33,215 nucleotides of DNA from Chloroflexota bacterium. GTDB lineage: Bacteria > Chloroflexota > Anaerolineae > Anaerolineales > UBA11579. The notes under the pieces are model-generated. The model had not been told where the DNA came from. It saw only the letters and a program-made list of their open reading frames with translations, and made no database searches. Below are positions 22,674 to 31,138 of this stretch, one piece after another (the first letter of the stretch is position 1; the number at the start of each line of letters is the position of its first letter). The stretch spans positions 1 to 33,215 of the forward strand of contig JAMCZK010000030.1 in NCBI GenBank assembly GCA_023485685.1, in the 5' to 3' direction. The position numbers and the translations under genes were made by a program.

Positions 22674-24095
22674 TTAATGTCCAGCCCCAGTTATTTGCAG
22701 GGGCACACGGGCTCGAGTAGAAAGGGAGAACGGCCCTAATCTTTCCAAGAATTCCTCTAATTCCCGCAACGAGCGTTCAGCGAAGGCCCCGGCTCGCTGG
22801 CGGCGCCCGGCTCTCCCCATCCTTGGCAACTTCGGCAGGATGCCGAAGTTTGCCTTCATTGGTTGAAATTCCTCAGCTTTAGCATGGGCAATGTAGTGGC
22901 AGAGCGCCCCGAGCATCGTTGTGGGAGGAAGGGTTAATGGCATTTGTCCGTAATGCAAGCGGGCGGCGTTAAGGCCTGCTAACAGCCCAGTTGCTATGTT
23001 CCCCACATAGCCTTCAACACCGGTGATCTGCCCGGTGAAAAACAAATCAGAACGGTTGCGAAACTGAAGTGTGCTTGAAAGTAAGGCAGGAGAATTGATA
23101 AAAGTATTACGATGCATTTGACCGAATCGCTCGAAATGCGCGTTCCCTAATCCCGGGATCATTCTGAAGACGCGTTTTTGTTCGGCGAACTTGAGGTTAG
23201 TTTGAAAGCCGACCAGATTATATAGAGTGCCGACAAGATTATCCTGGCGAAGTTGTACCACGGCATAGGCGTGCTCCCCGGTGCGCGGGTCATTGAGTCC
23301 AACAGGCCTCAGCGGGCCAAAAGCTAGGGCGCGCGGCCCGCGTTCTGCAATGATTTCGATAGGCAGGCAGCCTTCGAAGAATTTGTCCATCCCGGCGCGC
23401 ACACCCTCCTTAACCTCCGTTTCGAATTCACGCAATTCAATGCGTTCAGCCGTCAGCAGCGCCGCAAGAAACGCTTCGTATTCTTCTTTGGTGAAAGGGC
23501 AGTTAATGTAATCGCCCTTCTCGTCCATTCCGCGGCCGTATCGCGAACCATGGTAGGCGATCTGCATATCGATCGAATCCAAGTTGACGATTGGAGATAT
23601 TGCATCATAGAAGTAAAGGTGATCTTCACCGCTCAGCTTGGCAATAGCACGCGACAACTTCAATGAAGTTAAGGGGCCCGATGCAAGGATGCAGAGCCCA
23701 TCGGGGATTTCAGGCATCTCTTCACGGATTAGCAGAATGTTGGGGTGGCCCTCTATTCGCCTGCTAACCTCTGAACTAAACCTTTCCCTATCCACCGCCA
23801 AGGCTCCGCCGGCGGGAACAGCGGTTTCTTCAGCCACTTGGATGAGCAAGGAGCCCAAGCGCCGCAATTCATTCTTCAGTAAACCCGAAGCCCTGTCTGC
23901 CAGGTTCGATCCCAGGGAATTTGAACAGATCAGTTCGGCTAAGGATCCGCTAACGTGAGCACCAGTGTGCATTTTCGGGCGCATCTCGTAAAGAGTGACG
24001 CGCAACCCGCGCTCTGCCGCCTGCCAGGCAGCCTCAGATCCGGCTAATCCGCCGCCCACAACAATCAAATCGTGTTTTTTAGGCAACGGAGCCAT
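22674..24095 (-). CDS. trmFO: Methylenetetrahydrofolate-tRNA-(uracil-5-)-methyltransferase TrmFO
   Basis: TrmFO makes 5-methyluridine at position 54 of the tRNA T-loop, using methylene-THF and FAD. The 473-residue product has the N-terminal dinucleotide-binding motif [14 protein letters not shown] and the family segments [12 protein letters not shown] and [11 protein letters not shown]. It also has [11 protein letters not shown], with the Cys used in catalysis, [14 protein letters not shown] and [15 protein letters not shown]. The chosen ATG at 24095 ([16 protein letters not shown]) puts the FAD motif near the N-terminus; the frame extends to a TTG at 24164 that would overlap the divergent rpoN promoter. 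It heads the minus-strand run of genes down to 16246. Confidence 0.95.
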
Positions 24096-24122
24096 TCTAT
24101 CAAAACTGGAGTGGCATAGAAC

Positions 24123-24151
24123 TTGCATCGGTAGAGCTATCTCCCTATAAT
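24123..24151 (+). promoter_or_regulatory. Predicted sigma-70-type promoter for rpoN
   Basis: TTGCAT (24123-24128) and TATAAT (24146-24151) are 17 nt apart. The start of transcription would fall near 24158, only about 9 nt before the rpoN ATG and inside the AGGAG at 24156-24160. The transcript would thus be almost leaderless unless it starts slightly upstream. Confidence 0.5.
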
Positions 24152-24166
24152 GCACAGGAGCCAACT

Positions 24167-25582
24167 ATGGCATTGCCCTCCCAGATACTCTACCAATCCT
24201 CAACTCAGCGGCCGCAAACCACGGCGCATTTAGCCCAGACGATGAGCCTGCTTGGCCTTAATTCCCAAGAGTTGAGCCAGAAGATTGAGGCTGCGCTAGC
24301 CTCCAACCCAGCATTAGATTTGCTCGAAGGGCGGCATTGCCCCACGTGTGGACGCCACCTACGCGCCGAAGCCTATTGTCCAGCCTGCGTCGGGGCGAAA
24401 AGCATGGCAGCCAATGGCAATGATCCCGTAGTTTTCATAGCGCCGCCGGAAGGTAACTACAGCTACGAAGGCCGCAGCAGAGAAGATCTGCCAGAAGATT
24501 TCAATAGCGCCGAGCCGGAAACCCTGGCCAGCTATGTACTGGGGCAGATCGCCGCGGAACTGGAACCGCTTGAACAGGAAATCGCTGCCCACATCCTCAC
24601 AAGTCTGGATGGAGATGGCCTGCTGACCGTTCCATTAACCGAGGTTGCCCGCTATCACCATGTAGCCCTCGGCCAGGTGGAGGCGGTTGCTGACCGCATC
24701 CATCACGCCGATCCTGTAGGCGTGGGCTCCAGTACCACTGCCGAAGCGTTGATGGCGCAACTAGAATCATTTGGAAATCAGGCGCCCAACCCGGAATTAT
24801 GTGCGCGCACAATCCGTGAGGGCATGGGATTGCTCAGCAAACATCAATATGCAGAGCTCGGACATCTATTGGGTGTGAGCAAAACGAAAGCACAGCAAAT
24901 CGGCGAATTCATCACTGCCAACCTAAGCCCGTTCCCGGCCCGGGCGCATTGGGGCAGCCTGGGAACCCAGAATGCCGATGCACCCACAACCTACACGAGG
25001 CCAGACATTATCGTGAATCGCCAGGAGGACGGCCGGCTCATTGTAGAAGTGATGTGGCCTTTGCGTGGACTATTGCGCATAAACCCCCTGTTTCAACAGG
25101 CGTTGCGCGAAGCGCCCGAAGACAAGGCTGAACAATGGAAAATCGATTTGGAGCAGGCCAGCCTGCTCATCAAATGCCTGGCGCAACGCAATCACACCAT
25201 CGTGCGACTTATGCAAATGCTGGCCGTGTTACAAAAACATTTCATCGTGAGTGGTGACGCCCACTTGAAACCCGTTACCCGTGCCGCGATTGCCGATGAG
25301 CTGGGAGTACATGAATCGACCGTGTCGCGCGCGGTCTCCGGGAAATCAGTACAGCTTCCCTCTGGCAAGATTATCCCGCTTGCGCAGTTCTTCGACCGCA
25401 GTCTGCACATTCGCACCGCATTAAAGAAAATCATCAAGGACGAACCGAAACCGCTGAGCGACACCAAACTGGCGCGATTGTTGGCCAAGCAGGGTTACCG
25501 CGTTGCTCGTCGGACTGTGGCAAAATACCGCACCATGGAAGGCATCCTGCCTGCTCATATGAGGAAAGTGCACGCCATCTAA
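24167..25582 (+). CDS. rpoN: RNA polymerase sigma-54 factor with inserted zinc-ribbon-like motif
   Basis: RpoN directs core polymerase to -24/-12 promoters and needs an AAA+ activator. In the 471-residue protein, Region I (about 18-55: AHLAQTMSLLGLNSQEL, ALASNPALDLLE) is followed by a four-cysteine motif, C58-x2-C61-x9-C71-x2-C74, that looks like a zinc ribbon. Region II is otherwise short and acidic. Core-binding and HTH regions follow, with HESTVSRAVSGKSVQLPSG. Near the end is the RpoN box ARRTVAKYR, the -24 recognition helix. The final residues are normal. The gene is divergent from trmFO, with AGGAG before the ATG. A kinase and sigma-54 activator start immediately after it, so sigma factor and activator are probably co-expressed. 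Confidence 0.95.
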   Translation: MALPSQILYQSSTQRPQTTAHLAQTMSLLGLNSQELSQKIEAALASNPALDLLEGRHCPTCGRHLRAEAYCPACVGAKSMAANGNDPVVFIAPPEGNYSYEGRSREDLPEDFNSAEPETLASYVLGQIAAELEPLEQEIAAHILTSLDGDGLLTVPLTEVARYHHVALGQVEAVADRIHHADPVGVGSSTTAEALMAQLESFGNQAPNPELCARTIREGMGLLSKHQYAELGHLLGVSKTKAQQIGEFITANLSPFPARAHWGSLGTQNADAPTTYTRPDIIVNRQEDGRLIVEVMWPLRGLLRINPLFQQALREAPEDKAEQWKIDLEQASLLIKCLAQRNHTIVRLMQMLAVLQKHFIVSGDAHLKPVTRAAIADELGVHESTVSRAVSGKSVQLPSGKIIPLAQFFDRSLHIRTALKKIIKDEPKPLSDTKLARLLAKQGYRVARRTVAKYRTMEGILPAHMRKVHAI

Positions 25583-25583
25583 T

Positions 25584-27554
25584 ATGACATTATCCGGCAT
25601 CGGCGAACTGCCGCTCTTCAAGCGGCGCAGCTCTGGCGCAGAAGAACTCGAAGCCCTGCTGGATTTACTTCCCCACCCAACCATAATAGCTGACGGCCGC
25701 AGCGGCCGGGTGTTGTTTGCAAACGCGCAAGCCACTCAACTCACTGCTTATACGCGCCGCGAATTCACCGAACTCGAAGTTAGTACGCTGCTTCCTGAGT
25801 TCCCTATTAGCCAGCTAGAAAAAAATGGTAATAATCAATCAGACCAAAAACTGGTAACACGCAGTAGTCGTACCCTGCAGGTCAAATTGAAGACCGAATC
25901 CCTGGGCGGACAAGACCATTGGGTAGCCCTCACCCTACAACCCTCAACCAATCAACATCTGAATCCCGAGATTGTGGATCAACAGCGCTGGGAAGCCACA
26001 CATATGCTTTCACTGGCTGCACAACAAGAAGACCTGGCGTCCAGTCATCGACAGATCCTGCAAGCAGGCAGGCTGCTTACCGGGGCAGCTCACCTTGCAC
26101 TTTACCTTCCTTCCGGAATTGGTAAATTTTCACTGGAATCTGTAACGGGTAGCGGTTTTGAATTCCCTGCTGAATTGCCCGAGACCGATCTTGGCCATCT
26201 GCGTACGCCAAAAGTCTGGCAGCCGGGAAAACCGATTGAATCCACGCTCCACAAATTGGCCAATGCCAACAAATTGAATTACCTGGCGACCACTCCGTTG
26301 GATATCACGAATCCAAATTCGGGGTTGCTTGCAGTCGCTGACGTAGATAACCAAGCGTCGAAGGAATTGGTTACCTTAATCCAGATCCTGGCTGCCACAG
26401 CCGTCACGGCTGGTTTGAAAGCCCAATTGGCCGACGCGCTACGAACTGTAGGAAGTTCGCTTAGAGAATCAGAAGAAGTGCGCGCAGCGCTTCAGGATGG
26501 TGTTCAAGACGGGCTGTTATTCACCGATGACCTGCTCCGGGTGCTGGATCTGAATCCGGCTGCTGAAGCAATGCTTGGCTACACATCTGCTGAAGTACGT
26601 GGGCGTCCAGCGAACGACGTTCTGATTAGCACCCAGTCACTTTTGCCGGCCCTCGAACAGGCACTAATGGATAACAAAGCTACAGACGTCGGCAAGCGCA
26701 AGATCCACCGCCGTGACGGGAGCGAATTTCTGGCTTCCCTACGCATCATTCCAATTAGCGTTGACGGGAAGATAAACAAGCTTGCTATTCTATTCACAGA
26801 CCTGAGCGAACACGAGGCGTTCCACCTCCAAAATCAGCAACTACAACAGCGCGCCGCTATTGGGGAGATTACCGCAATTTTTGCCCATGAAGTGCGCAAC
26901 CCCATCAACAGCATCAGCACCGGTCTGCAATTAATGCAGCTCAACCTCCCCGAGCAAGACCCACTGCAAGAACAGATCAAGAAGCTGCAGGAGGATGTCG
27001 ACCGCCTGGAACACCGCATGAAATCGGTGGACACGTTTTCCCGTAACCTCGAACCCCACCCCGAGCCGCTTGACCTCGGCGAATTTTGTCGCGGCCAGCT
27101 TGACCGTTGGCGGCCGCGCATGAGTCGCAAACACATCAAAGACCATATCCAGGTAGCAGCCCCTACCCCACAAATCTTAGGCGACCGGCGTGCGTTAGAT
27201 CAAGTGTTTACCAATCTAATCACCAATGCCATTCAGGCCATGGAAGACCAGGAAGGTGGCATTCTGGCTATCAAGGTACGTCCCAACCCGAACGATCCCG
27301 CTATGGTCGATGTGCACATTTCAGACTCCGGACCAGGGATCCCGGAGGATGTCCGCAAACGTATTTTCGAGCCCTTTTTCACCACTAAGGGTCATGAGGG
27401 CACTGGCCTGGGGCTAGCCATTACGCGACGTATCGTCATGGCGCATAAAGGAAAAATCGAGTGCGAAAGCTTCCCCGGCGGTACACTGTTTAAAATCCAA
27501 TTGCCGGTTGCGCCTGCCGCAACCGCGGAAGGGAACCCCGCGCAATGGGACTGA
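25584..27554 (+). CDS. PAS-domain sensor histidine kinase (NtrB-like), cytoplasmic
   Basis: This 656-residue kinase has no transmembrane segment, so it should sense a cytoplasmic signal. Order: PAS near 25-90 (LLPHPTIIADGRSGRVLFANAQATQL), a GAF-like region near 130-285, and a second PAS near 305-415 (DGLLFTDDLLRVLDLNPAAEAMLGY). Next come the HisKA H-box FAHEVRNPINSI with His435, then HATPase with NLITNAIQAM (N box), DSGPGIP (G1), FEPFFTTK (F) and GTGLGLAI (G2). The HEVRNP box and glycine boxes are of the NtrB/AtoS type that pairs with sigma-54 activators. It begins 1 nt after the rpoN stop and overlaps the response regulator by 10 nt, marking it as the cognate kinase. The ligand is unknown. 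Confidence 0.92.
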   Translation: MTLSGIGELPLFKRRSSGAEELEALLDLLPHPTIIADGRSGRVLFANAQATQLTAYTRREFTELEVSTLLPEFPISQLEKNGNNQSDQKLVTRSSRTLQVKLKTESLGGQDHWVALTLQPSTNQHLNPEIVDQQRWEATHMLSLAAQQEDLASSHRQILQAGRLLTGAAHLALYLPSGIGKFSLESVTGSGFEFPAELPETDLGHLRTPKVWQPGKPIESTLHKLANANKLNYLATTPLDITNPNSGLLAVADVDNQASKELVTLIQILAATAVTAGLKAQLADALRTVGSSLRESEEVRAALQDGVQDGLLFTDDLLRVLDLNPAAEAMLGYTSAEVRGRPANDVLISTQSLLPALEQALMDNKATDVGKRKIHRRDGSEFLASLRIIPISVDGKINKLAILFTDLSEHEAFHLQNQQLQQRAAIGEITAIFAHEVRNPINSISTGLQLMQLNLPEQDPLQEQIKKLQEDVDRLEHRMKSVDTFSRNLEPHPEPLDLGEFCRGQLDRWRPRMSRKHIKDHIQVAAPTPQILGDRRALDQVFTNLITNAIQAMEDQEGGILAIKVRPNPNDPAMVDVHISDSGPGIPEDVRKRIFEPFFTTKGHEGTGLGLAITRRIVMAHKGKIECESFPGGTLFKIQLPVAPAATAEGNPAQWD

Positions 27555-28729
27555 GCGTTTTGGTTGTAGATGATGAAAAAAACGCGCGCCAAAACATCGC
27601 CGCGTTTTTGAAGAAAAAAGATTACGAAGTCCTGGAAGCAGAAACAATCAAAGCGGCGAAAAAAGCCATGGGCGAAGGCAGCGCCGATGTTGTATTGCTG
27701 GACGTCGAGCTTCCTGATGGCTTAGGCACATCTCTTCTAGAGGAAAGCGCAACCAATCCTGCTCGGCCACCTATCATCATGATTACTGCCCATGGGGACA
27801 TAGACATGGCTGTTGAGGCCATGAAAAACGGCGCCCATGATTTTTTGCAGAAACCCATCAAATTTGAGCGATTGGAGCAGTCCATTCAGCGAGCCAGTGA
27901 AACTGTTGCAATGCGACGTGAACTAAACCACCTGCGCCAGGCGCAACAGCAGCGTGATTTCATTCTGGGGGAAAGCGAGGCAATGAAATCCTTGCTAGCG
28001 CAAGCGGAACGCGCCGCTCAAACCTCAGTATCGGTTTTGATCACAGGAGAGACAGGCACCGGCAAGGAAGTGCTGGCGAGAGCAATCCATCGCATGGGGA
28101 CGCGCAAAGAGAAACCGTTTATCGATATCAACTGCGCAGCTGTGCCATCCATGACCATTGAATCCGAACTCTTCGGGCACGAAGCGGGGGCGTTTACCAG
28201 CGCAGATAAACGAAAACCGGGATTGATGGAGATCGCCAACGACGGCATCCTCTTCCTCGACGAAATATCCTCCATGCCGCCGGATATGCAAAGTAAATTA
28301 CTACGGGCACTCGAAGAGCGCAGTTTCCGCCGCATGGGCGGCACGAATTTGATCAAGGTCGATGTGCAAATCCTGGCAGCTTCTAATCGCGATTTGCCAG
28401 CCCTGATCAAGAGTGGCGGGTTTCGCGATGATCTGTATTACCGGCTTCGAGTTGTTTCGCTTGACATGCCGCCCCTGCGCGACCGCAAAGCAGATATCCC
28501 GGAATTGGTCGGCTTCTTTATACAACAGAACAATCCGCGCATGGGTCTCAATATTCGCGACGTGACGCCAAAAGCAATGGACATATTGAAAGCTCACGAT
28601 TGGCCCGGGAATATACGAGAGTTGCGCAATGTAATTGAACGTGCGATGCTTTTTTGCGATGAAGCCGCCATTGATGCGGCTCATCTTCCCGCAGAATTAA
28701 TCCCACCCAAAAAATCCAAGGGCAAGTGA
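27545..28729 (+). CDS. Sigma-54-dependent response regulator lacking a DNA-binding domain (NtrC-like)
   Basis: A 394-residue AAA+ activator. The receiver domain (1-120) has the D9-D10 acidic pair, the phosphoacceptor D53 (LLDVELPDG), T81 and K103. The central AAA+ domain (about 140-370) has Walker A GETGTGKE (168-175), the sigma-54 contact loop, Walker B GILFLDEI, sensor I AASNRDL, Arg fingers in FRDDLYYRLR and sensor II WPGNIRELRN. Two features are odd. The contact loop reads GAFTSA (215-220), with Ser for the second Gly of GAFTGA. The protein also stops about 20 residues after the AAA+ domain, in a basic tail PPKKSKGK, where a Fis-type helix-turn-helix is normally found. No remnant of one is visible downstream. 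Confidence 0.93.
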   Translation: MGLSVLVVDDEKNARQNIAAFLKKKDYEVLEAETIKAAKKAMGEGSADVVLLDVELPDGLGTSLLEESATNPARPPIIMITAHGDIDMAVEAMKNGAHDFLQKPIKFERLEQSIQRASETVAMRRELNHLRQAQQQRDFILGESEAMKSLLAQAERAAQTSVSVLITGETGTGKEVLARAIHRMGTRKEKPFIDINCAAVPSMTIESELFGHEAGAFTSADKRKPGLMEIANDGILFLDEISSMPPDMQSKLLRALEERSFRRMGGTNLIKVDVQILAASNRDLPALIKSGGFRDDLYYRLRVVSLDMPPLRDRKADIPELVGFFIQQNNPRMGLNIRDVTPKAMDILKAHDWPGNIRELRNVIERAMLFCDEAAIDAAHLPAELIPPKKSKGK

Positions 28730-28825
28730 AATCGCGTCCAGCGGTTAGTTCACCCACTGATTATCGAATGCTTGTTTTTACTACATCATCATCCAGTCCT
28801 GGGGAACACACACGCTGAGCGCGCG

Positions 28826-31138
28826 ATGGATAGTATCCGCCTTCCGAAATTCCTTAATCCCCCTCGATTTGCCAACGAAACCACCTCTCGGCAGGCAGCT
28901 ATTCTCAATGTCTGCTTATGGGTTGGCCTTTTCTTAGTTGTCGTCTACACATTTATAACCCTATTGCTTCCCCCTTCCCGATATTTAAATATTACCGTCG
29001 AGCTTAGCCTGATTGCGCTACATTTGATCAGTCTCGCGCTCATGCATCGGGGCTACCCTTGGCTGGCCGCTTCGCTATATACGGCGTGCTTGTGGCTGCT
29101 GATTGCCTCCGTCACCTTGTCTTTTGGCGATATCACCGGCACGGGAGCAACCAGCCTATACACGGTGATCCTGATTGGTGGCATTCTGCTGGGCATCGCC
29201 GGCGCCTTCAGCCTGGCTGCGCTTAGCATGACAGTGGTTGCAGCCACGACATTTTTTTCCCAAAACACTCCTCCAACAATCGATGATTGGATCCCCGCCC
29301 TGACTGTGGCTATCAATTTTGGGTTGGTGGCTGTGGCAGCCTGGCTTGGCCAGCGAAACATCATCAAATCCCTGACCAGCGCCGAGAGCAGTCAGACCCT
29401 GCTGAGCAACCGCAGCGCCCAGTTGCAGGCGGCCGCTGAAATCGGCACCGCCACGGCGACCAGTAAAGACCTGAGTTCACTGCTCCAGACGATCACACAG
29501 GTTATTGCAGAACGATTTGGCTTCTATCACGTAGCGATCCTGACCCCGGACCTTAATGCTGAAGAGCCGGGGTACATTGTCATCAGCGAAGGCGGACGAA
29601 AAGCGGGCAAGCGAACGCTGGTTAGTGCAAAACCATCAGATGGCAGGAGCATTATTGCGCACGCTGCCCGAACAAAAAAACCATATTTAGCTCGTGACGT
29701 AAAAACGGACGCACTCTACTTGCACAACCCGCAATTTGACGAAACCCGTTCCGAAATTGCCGTCCCCATTATTGCCGGTGGTTCCTTGCTTGGGGTTCTC
29801 GACGTTCTAAGCAATCAAGAAAATCCATTGACTACCGATGAAATGAACGCGCTCCAGGTCCTTGCCAATCAAATAGGTTCAGCCGTCCATAGCCACGGGT
29901 TGCTCGAAGATACCCAGCGGCACTTGGAAGAACTGATTGCCCTCAACGCGATCGCCACTGCGGGCACAGAGGCACTAAGCGAAGACGAATTCATAACCAG
30001 GGCTACCGAGGTGGTAGGCAAGTCGCTTTTTCCTACCAACTTCGGGGTACTTCTGCTGGATGAAAAAAAAGGGCTACTGCAACACCATGCCTCCTACACC
30101 GAAAAGCGCGCCAAGGTGTCGCCTCCAATCCCATTGGGCGAAGGCATCACGGGCCTGGTAGCCCTCAGCGGCCAGGCCGCACGCGTGGCCGATGTTTCTT
30201 CTGAACCTAAATACATCTCCGTGGATCCCCGCGTCCGTTCGGAACTCTGCGTTCCACTTAAGATCGGGGAACGCGTCCTGGGTGTGCTCGACGCGGAAAG
30301 TTACGAAGTCGACTCTTTCAGTAAAACTGACGAGCACTTGTTACAAACACTGGCGGGGCAAATTTCCACTTCTCTGGAGCGCATCCGGCTACTTTCCGAA
30401 GCCCAACAGAGAGCGGATGAATTGGCAAATACATTAAAACAACAGAAAGAATTGGCCCGATTGAGGGACGAATTCATCCAGAATGTGTCGCATGAATTTC
30501 GTACTCCCCTCTCCATTGTCAACGGCTACATCGAAATTCTCGACAGCGGCGAGTTTGGCCCATTGCCTGAACCTTATAAGCAGCCTGTCGACATCATCGC
30601 CAAGCGCGTCCGTTCGCTCACTAAGCTGGTCGAAGATCTCACTTCCTTGCTCGATATGGCTGCTCACAGAGGCGACTTCACCATCCTGCGGCTATCGGAC
30701 GTGATCAATCCTATGTACGCCGATTTCCGGACCCGAGCCCTGGCAGAGCGTATCGAACTCAATCTGGATATTGGTTCCTCTCTGCCCTCCGTGCACGGTG
30801 AGGAAACTTTACTTCGAAAAGCTGTGGAAAACCTTGTCGACAACGCCATCAAGTTCACCCCACCTGAAGGTAAAGTAGATATTCGTCTAAAGTCCGAAAA
30901 TAGTTCTGTAATGGTTGAAGTAAGTGATAGCGGTCTCAGCATCCCCGCCGAGGAGCAGCAACGTATCTTCGATCGCTTCTATCAAATCGAGGCCGGCTCC
31001 ACCAGGCGCTATGGTGGCACCGGCCTCGGACTCGCTTTAGTCAAGGAAATCGTCGAACTACACGGCGGCGAAATCCACGTCCGCAGCAATGTGGGTGAAG
31101 GGAGCACTTTCCAAATCAAACTCCCAGCCATCAAATAA
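28826..31138 (+). CDS. Membrane GAF-domain sensor histidine kinase
   Basis: From ATG 28826 the product has 770 residues; a TTG upstream at 28772 is less likely. The N-terminal 190 residues hold about six hydrophobic helices (for example VGLFLVVVYTFITLLL and TVILIGGILLGIAGAF), a membrane sensor module. Two GAF domains follow: about 205-360, with AVPIIAGGSLLGVLDV, and about 375-530, with CVPLKIGERVLGVLDAES. The HisKA box VSHEFRTPLSIV has His556. The HATPase has NLVDNAIKFTPP (N box), FDRFYQIE (F) and GGTGLGLALVK (G2). The G1 box reads D701-S-G-L-S705, where DxGxG is usual. It lies 96 nt after the sigma-54 activator with no regulator of its own following, so it may be an orphan kinase or feed the neighbouring regulator. 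Confidence 0.9.
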   Translation: MDSIRLPKFLNPPRFANETTSRQAAILNVCLWVGLFLVVVYTFITLLLPPSRYLNITVELSLIALHLISLALMHRGYPWLAASLYTACLWLLIASVTLSFGDITGTGATSLYTVILIGGILLGIAGAFSLAALSMTVVAATTFFSQNTPPTIDDWIPALTVAINFGLVAVAAWLGQRNIIKSLTSAESSQTLLSNRSAQLQAAAEIGTATATSKDLSSLLQTITQVIAERFGFYHVAILTPDLNAEEPGYIVISEGGRKAGKRTLVSAKPSDGRSIIAHAARTKKPYLARDVKTDALYLHNPQFDETRSEIAVPIIAGGSLLGVLDVLSNQENPLTTDEMNALQVLANQIGSAVHSHGLLEDTQRHLEELIALNAIATAGTEALSEDEFITRATEVVGKSLFPTNFGVLLLDEKKGLLQHHASYTEKRAKVSPPIPLGEGITGLVALSGQAARVADVSSEPKYISVDPRVRSELCVPLKIGERVLGVLDAESYEVDSFSKTDEHLLQTLAGQISTSLERIRLLSEAQQRADELANTLKQQKELARLRDEFIQNVSHEFRTPLSIVNGYIEILDSGEFGPLPEPYKQPVDIIAKRVRSLTKLVEDLTSLLDMAAHRGDFTILRLSDVINPMYADFRTRALAERIELNLDIGSSLPSVHGEETLLRKAVENLVDNAIKFTPPEGKVDIRLKSENSSVMVEVSDSGLSIPAEEQQRIFDRFYQIEAGSTRRYGGTGLGLALVKEIVELHGGEIHVRSNVGEGSTFQIKLPAIK

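Follow-up and report, generated by a model that had tools for sequence, protein, structure and literature searches.

Chlamydia CtcC, which has AtoC as its nearest counterpart and no DNA-binding domain, controls a regulon that includes membrane proteins (PMC7482065), and together with FlgR and with activators that have no signal domain it belongs to type Ic, a class of about 4% in Francke 2011 (PMC3162934). Autoregulation of rpoN through a sigma-54 promoter before the gene is known from Geobacter, Dokdonia and others (PMC12316311). Sigma-54 has been noted in some Chloroflexi (PMC3162934), and the strings "chloroflex" and "anaerolin" are absent from the main text of a 2025 survey of sigma-54 regulons (PMC12316311). 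Here, we describe a cassette of rpoN, a PAS histidine kinase gene and the gene of a sigma-54 activator without a helix-turn-helix (HTH) domain, found in a 33,215-nucleotide stretch of DNA (contig JAMCZK010000030.1, hereafter the window) from a Chloroflexota bacterium of the order Anaerolineales. We consider it likely that this cassette, the one sigma-54 system we could find in this bacterium, is a self-contained positive-feedback switch with an operon for a second FtsZ (FtsZ2) as its conserved output.

The activator of the cassette resembles CtcC, the only sigma-54 activator known in Chlamydia, in having no HTH domain. The chlamydial rpoN is not known to be linked to the genes of the AtoS-AtoC-like pair CtcB-CtcC, whereas in Anaerolineales rpoN is part of the unit and is preceded by a sigma-54 site. 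Helicobacter FlgR likewise consists of a receiver and an AAA+ domain with no HTH, but here the trait spans an order. Outputs differ as well: type III secretion and membrane genes in Chlamydia and the flagellar genes that FlgR serves, as against ftsZ2 and wall genes predicted in Anaerolineales. To the self-promoter of rpoN seen in Geobacter and Dokdonia, Anaerolineales add the kinase and activator within the unit and a possible overlapping housekeeping promoter. HTH-less activators are already known; the self-regulated unit and its link to FtsZ2 appear to be new, and no paper recognisable as a description of such a cassette/FtsZ2 system was among the open-literature papers listed for sigma-54 in Chloroflexi, rpoN in Anaerolineae, two FtsZ in Chloroflexi and rpoN autoregulation with overlapping promoters.

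Gene order, copy number and the missing DNA-binding domain

The three genes lie head to tail on the plus strand of the window: rpoN (24167..25582, 471 amino acids (aa)), the gene of an AtoS-like PAS histidine kinase predicted to be soluble (25584..27554, 656 aa), and that of a response regulator with a sigma-54-activating AAA+ domain and no DNA-binding domain (27545..28729, 394 aa). One nucleotide separates rpoN from the kinase gene, and the kinase and regulator genes overlap by 10 nucleotides, bearing out the tight packing described in an earlier sequence-only reading of this DNA. RpoN contains the AID, CBD and DBD regions of Pfam and the RpoN box ARRTVAKYR, and scores 258 bits against a TIGR02395 cut-off of 277. 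The kinase matches PAS, HisKA and HATPase_c, with His435 as phospho-acceptor (HEVRNP); the regulator matches Response_reg, Sigma54_activat (227 bits) and AAA_lid_14 and has the invariant Asp53. The best NCBIfam models are AtoS for the kinase and AtoC for the regulator, both far below their cut-offs. Hydropathy analysis of the kinase revealed no transmembrane segment (best 19-residue mean 1.67), so it probably senses a cytoplasmic signal.

We compared the window with 61 genomes from its own assembly, genus (11 genomes), family and order, sampling 15 families; G, L and f labels below are our handles for genomes, loci and families. Genomes counted as rpoN-positive had an RpoN DNA-binding domain match over the cut-off, and activators were PF00158 (Sigma54_activat) matches above 60 bits. 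Fifty-two cassettes, the window included, were read from 51 rpoN-positive genomes; contig ends interrupt three of them, leaving 49 with all three genes on the contig. Each of these 49, which come from 13 of the 15 families, has rpoN first, then the kinase gene and then the regulator gene, all on a single strand; the median intergenic gaps are 0 and −1 nucleotides. An order conserved in this way excludes a chance arrangement. One rpoN over the cut-off was found in 49 genomes, two in 2 and none in 10. An activator match is present in 52 of the 61 genomes and is single in 45, among them all 11 of the genus. The own assembly (1.71 Mb, 76% complete, with the window as contig 26), whose closest named relatives are Anaerolineales and other Chloroflexi metagenome-assembled genomes, has one rpoN and one real PF00158 match (229 bits); a second match, of 34 bits, covers only profile positions 23–134 in an 830-aa frame. 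For the sequence-only reading, a conserved cassette with few or no other activators would support its idea, and several further full-length HTH-bearing activators in this genome would refute it; we found the former and, in this assembly, none of the latter, and each of the 10 sister genomes likewise has a single activator match.

In some members of the order this AAA+ domain occurs in one further protein, which in several cases has an HTH. In G028, G032 and G041 the lone activator match is a different, long protein rather than the cassette regulator. Four loci (L280, L281, L282 and L283, from G028, G041, G032 and G057, respectively) encode HTH-bearing proteins of 668–737 aa with a Sigma54_activat match, in which no GAFTGA-like loop was found; as G028 and G041 have no rpoN, these long proteins probably do not act on sigma-54. 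Separately, family f11 of the order has neither an RpoN match over the cut-off nor an activator match in any of its 11 listed genomes; having lost the system naturally, this family might be used as a control.

The regulator of the window ends 34 aa past WPGNIREL and matches no HTH family in Pfam, confirming the earlier observation that it lacks a C-terminal HTH. The tail after WPGNxRE/QL measures 26–51 aa in 43 of the 49 regulators, window included, so the missing domain does not reflect a local frameshift. The other six comprise two that end about as soon but have a variant of the motif (G016, G044), three cut by the contig (G027, G029, G038) and one that is masked (G030). A Pfam scan of the 45 regulators that remain without the three cut and the one masked found Sigma54_activat and receiver matches in all; the list of families matched, shown for 25 of 35, does not include HTH_8, and therefore at most two of the 45 could match it. 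Across whole genomes, HTH_8 has no match at E 0.001 in any of the 11 genus members and matches in 20 of the 61 genomes, seven of which have it (in eight places) within or less than 500 bases from a PF00158 match. None of these eight places is the cassette regulator, and we saw no close relative within the order whose cassette regulator retains an HTH.

Outside the order we read 30 RpoN with their loci and 50 of 89 listed activator places. Forty-nine of the 50 activators have tails of 90–133 aa, short PspF-like ones included, and the remaining one runs off the end of its contig; HTH_8 matched in 24 of 30 scanned. As the tails read in other Chloroflexota are long enough for an HTH, the loss looks local to the order and may have happened in parallel with that in CtcC.

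Predicted promoters of the cassette and of an FtsZ2 operon

A −24/−12 site, TGGCATAGAACTTGCA (24112..24127, plus strand), lies 39 bases upstream of the rpoN start codon, with a predicted transcription start near 24138. Searching from 400 bases before to 250 after each called rpoN start, we found the strict pattern TGG[CT][AG][CT]N5TTGC[AT] in 45 of the 52 cassettes, a site with one core base changed in five more (G027, G040, G049, G053, G060) and a perfect site within an over-long frame in G026; annotated rpoN starts frequently lie too far upstream, and this accounts for sites that fall within a frame. With G030 excluded, whose upstream contig has only 58 bases, a site precedes rpoN in 51 of 51 testable cassettes, and the unit is therefore predicted to activate itself. 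The partly overlapping set of named loci L003–L031 gave 25 with an rpoN start, 19 with the strict site and six with one core base changed (L021, L024, L025, L026, L030, which is weak at 9.1, and L031). On reversed upstream DNA the best promoter score was 10.6, and 95% fell below 4.1. The flanks of 72 sites hold 0.01–0.31 bits per position, except for 0.81 two bases past the site; conservation of the −24/−12 blocks follows from the way the search pattern was built. This site strengthens the notion of a self-contained switch put forward by the sequence-only reading, which the comparison supports overall.

The same promoter carries TATAAT, a housekeeping-sigma −10-like box (24146..24151, plus strand), 17 bp past TTGCAT (24123–24128). 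Counted from the T of TGG, TATAAT with at most one base changed occurs at a distance of 28–45 bases in 34 of 50 cassettes (500 shuffles of the downstream bases: mean 3.0, maximum 8), and at 33 or 34, that is 16–17 bp past TTGCA read as a −35 element, in 27 of 50 (mean 0.36, maximum 3). We infer that it belongs to a housekeeping promoter that overlaps the sigma-54 promoter and gives basal expression, and at which waiting RpoN-polymerase could also repress housekeeping transcription. The box is found in none of the 42 readable promoters of the 446-aa gene described below (43 rows, that of G043 being empty), a comparison weakened by the many sites that lie near the gene start, where the −10 region is coding.

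To identify targets beyond the cassette, we collected TGGCAYN5TTGCA in the genus (76 occurrences in 11 genomes) and read the genes downstream of 60 sites in 10 genomes (59 of 65 non-rpoN sites and one TTGCT site; G008 excluded). A gene for a 446-aa protein followed by ftsZ lies downstream in nine of the 10 (G000 is the exception), an LCP glycopolymer transferase gene in nine, with G006 confirmed and a Pfam match on the G000 copy, and a member of a 406-aa protein family in seven. The own assembly has such sites before rpoN, before the LCP gene (L168) and before the 406-aa gene (L172).

Across the order, the 446-aa protein is encoded in 50 of 61 genomes: 46 of the 51 with rpoN and four of the 10 without. 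Among the 45 genomes that are at least 90% complete, the proportions are 38 of 39 and one of six. Since the genomes are related, we claim no p-value for this co-occurrence. Of the 46 genomes with both genes, 45 could be tested with a scoring matrix, and 40 have a site of score ≥16 at the start of the 446-aa gene; ftsZ2 has a site of its own in 16 of the 45 rpoN-positive genomes where it was located. The 406-aa family is present in 47 of 51 genomes with rpoN and one of 10 without. With a site in 40 of 45 testable genomes, the 446-aa/FtsZ2 operon is the best conserved predicted target outside the cassette.

The aspartate of the T7-loop motif NxDFxD is required for GTP hydrolysis by FtsZ. Most of the 61 genomes have at least two FtsZ by TIGR00065, and an FtsZ over its cut-off lies on the contig of the 446-aa gene in 50 of 50 genomes that have this gene. 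A tree of 47 FtsZ2 and 20 FtsZ1 sequences (FtsZ2 read in 48 of 50 loci, FtsZ1 in 20 of 61 genomes) separates the two with support of 100/100, although it is unrooted and has long branches flagged. While FtsZ1 keeps the T7-loop aspartate in 20 of 20 sequences read, 41 of 44 readable FtsZ2 have His or Asn in its place, G044, G047 and G059 keeping Asp. Apart from this change and its place in the tree, FtsZ2 is like canonical FtsZ in that a PAF(L/M)RKR-like peptide is mostly kept at the end in the five rows displayed. Five genomes, G033, G046 and G058 (98–99% complete) and G028 and G041 (94 and 90%), have a single FtsZ match and neither an rpoN over the cut-off nor the 446-aa gene.

A structure model of the 446-aa protein (the L025 member, from three sequences) was too poor, with a mean predicted local distance difference test (pLDDT) value of 51.6; its 50 listed PDB matches were mostly TIM-barrel-type enzymes, none with a template modelling (TM) score above 0.50, and gave no function. 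Sequence searches of PDB with the 446-aa and 406-aa proteins returned nothing below E 0.2. Some 8 kb separate the regulator from the 446-aa gene that follows it in L024, L025 and L028, in L025 after genes for TPR and C25-peptidase-like proteins. Such TPR/Peptidase_C25-like proteins, with an FTEACYGA motif and a Pfam match obtained from L025, stand beside the 446-aa gene behind the cassette in all three (L025:16738-19494, L024:16894-19593, L028:14743-17277).

The proposed switch and competing explanations

Gene content, gene order, domain loss, conserved promoter sites and co-occurrence are properties of the sequences themselves; the dynamic steps that follow are our inference from them. The overlapping housekeeping promoter would supply a low basal level of RpoN, kinase and activator, and RpoN-polymerase would wait in the closed state at a few −24/−12 promoters. 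On a cytoplasmic signal the kinase would phosphorylate Asp53 of the regulator, which would form an AAA+ ring. Because the regulator has no HTH and is the sole activator, this ring could act from solution on all RpoN holoenzymes at once, and with the cassette's own promoter among the targets the response would be amplified. The conserved output in most cassette-bearing genomes of the order would be the 446-aa/FtsZ2 operon, joined in the genus by the LCP-type cell-wall glycopolymer transferase gene and the 406-aa family, and the switch would alter division or envelope building.

Several observations weigh against this model. The 446-aa/ftsZ2 operon was not found in the own assembly (76% complete), so this target is carried over from the 10 sister genomes, where the operon is always present. 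Five testable rpoN-positive genomes (G032, G037, G039, G045, G057) have no site before the 446-aa gene, and two rpoN-less ones do (G021 at 18.7, G023 at 16.6); the other two rpoN-less genomes with the gene score 10.5 (G018) or have no site (G052). Of the 30 best order-wide loci of the 406-aa family, only eight show a site close to the match. Sites of these very promoters were part of the training set of the scoring matrix, so its scores lean towards them. The composite promoter belongs mainly to family f1 (20 of 27, the remainder from five other families). Relatedness makes the counts non-independent, and the evidence is sequence throughout. Finally, the motif exceeds its reversed control in rpoN-less genomes too (1.73 versus 0.33 per Mb, as against 2.83 versus 0.45 in rpoN-positive ones); we therefore regard site counting as weak evidence and rejected genome-wide −24/−12 counts.

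One alternative, which we hold to be unlikely, keeps the cassette and makes its link to FtsZ2 indirect, with rpoN and ftsZ2 co-inherited by life style and the sites under unrelated control. The kinship of the genomes, the two rpoN-less genomes that keep the site and the four of 10 that keep the 446-aa gene are compatible with it. Yet the site stands at the 446-aa gene start in 40 of 45 testable rpoN-positive genomes with diverged flanks, a second one precedes ftsZ2 in 16 of 45, and the operon lies less than 20 kb from cassette genes in G031, G036, G039, G045 and G049, which represent four families.

Equally improbable, in our assessment, is that a partner protein or contacts between the AAA+ ring and DNA steer the regulator to chosen promoters, so that −24/−12 promoters respond unequally. 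The second AAA+ proteins of some order members, several with an HTH, make mixed rings conceivable, but all 11 genus genomes have one activator match above 60 bits and no HTH_8 match. The neighbours looked for were TrmFO and a second kinase only, with no systematic search for an adaptor gene.

Less probable still is that the conserved site is some other binding site or a housekeeping-sigma promoter with TTGCA as its −35 element, as the TATAAT-like box at −35/−10 spacing in 27 of 50 rpoN promoters and the pattern excess in rpoN-less genomes might suggest, since TGGCAY at −24 is kept with TTGCA where no box follows (16 of 50 rpoN promoters and the 42 readable 446-aa promoters) and TGGCAY/TTGCA agrees with the known sigma-54 consensus (PMC12316311).

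Further features of the locus and meaning for the order

RpoN of the window contains a CxxC-x9-CxxC cluster (Cys58, 61, 71 and 74; 24338..24388, plus strand) between region I and the core-binding domain. The cluster is present in 52 of 52 order cassettes, aligned in 25 of 25, and absent at the corresponding place in three solved sigma-54 chains that we aligned; the predicted structure has pLDDT of about 75–85 across it, and it is possibly a zinc ribbon. It is not specific to the order, occurring in 28 of 30 RpoN read from other Chloroflexota. In the regulator, GAFTSA (28187..28204, plus strand) occupies the GAFTGA position. In the 45 of 49 regulators read for it, the loop is GAFTGA in 27, GAYTGA in seven, GAFTSA in seven, GAFTDA in three and GAFTTA in one; with GAFTGA or GAYTGA in 34, we rejected GAFTSA as a lineage trait.

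Upstream, trmFO (22674-24164) stands divergent beside rpoN, so that the sigma-54 site sits between both genes; a search of 29 named loci found it in 12 as well, while several of the others end too early. Downstream, a double-GAF histidine kinase gene (28772-31138) follows the cassette, encoding hydrophobic N-terminal segments and having no adjoining partner regulator; a relative is present behind the cassette in only part of the genomes. Seven named loci (L015, L024–L029) have an extra −24/−12-like site within about 160 bases 3' of the regulator, followed in L025 by a 124-aa membrane-protein-like frame.

Among further candidate sites, a recurring TGGCATCAAxxTTGCA was rejected, as it lies inside a reading frame common to the genomes, and those before a flavin reductase gene and before a receiver/Y1-transposase-like gene upstream of polA are weak and overlap other frames. 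In the product of the latter gene (L169:3468-4871 and relatives), a receiver domain is joined to a Y1 (IS200-like) transposase domain; the next gene downstream is DNA polymerase I-like, as judged from the start of its sequence, and the −24/−12-like site lies in the frame before the fusion gene.

We tentatively put forward, as a possibility we would not yet favour, that sigma-54 in Anaerolineales is a cell-architecture switch, in which a DNA-blind activator turns on a GTPase-impaired FtsZ2 and its 446-aa partner together, FtsZ2 co-assembles with FtsZ1 and changes or halts division, and the composite promoter renders the response bistable. The self-contained switch considered likely above is a small, complete sigma-54 circuit of one sigma factor, one kinase, one activator and few promoters, which would make it possible to test if control by an activator that does not bind DNA is global and all-or-none. 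For a poorly cultured group, it predicts an order-wide role of sigma-54 in cell division through an altered second FtsZ.

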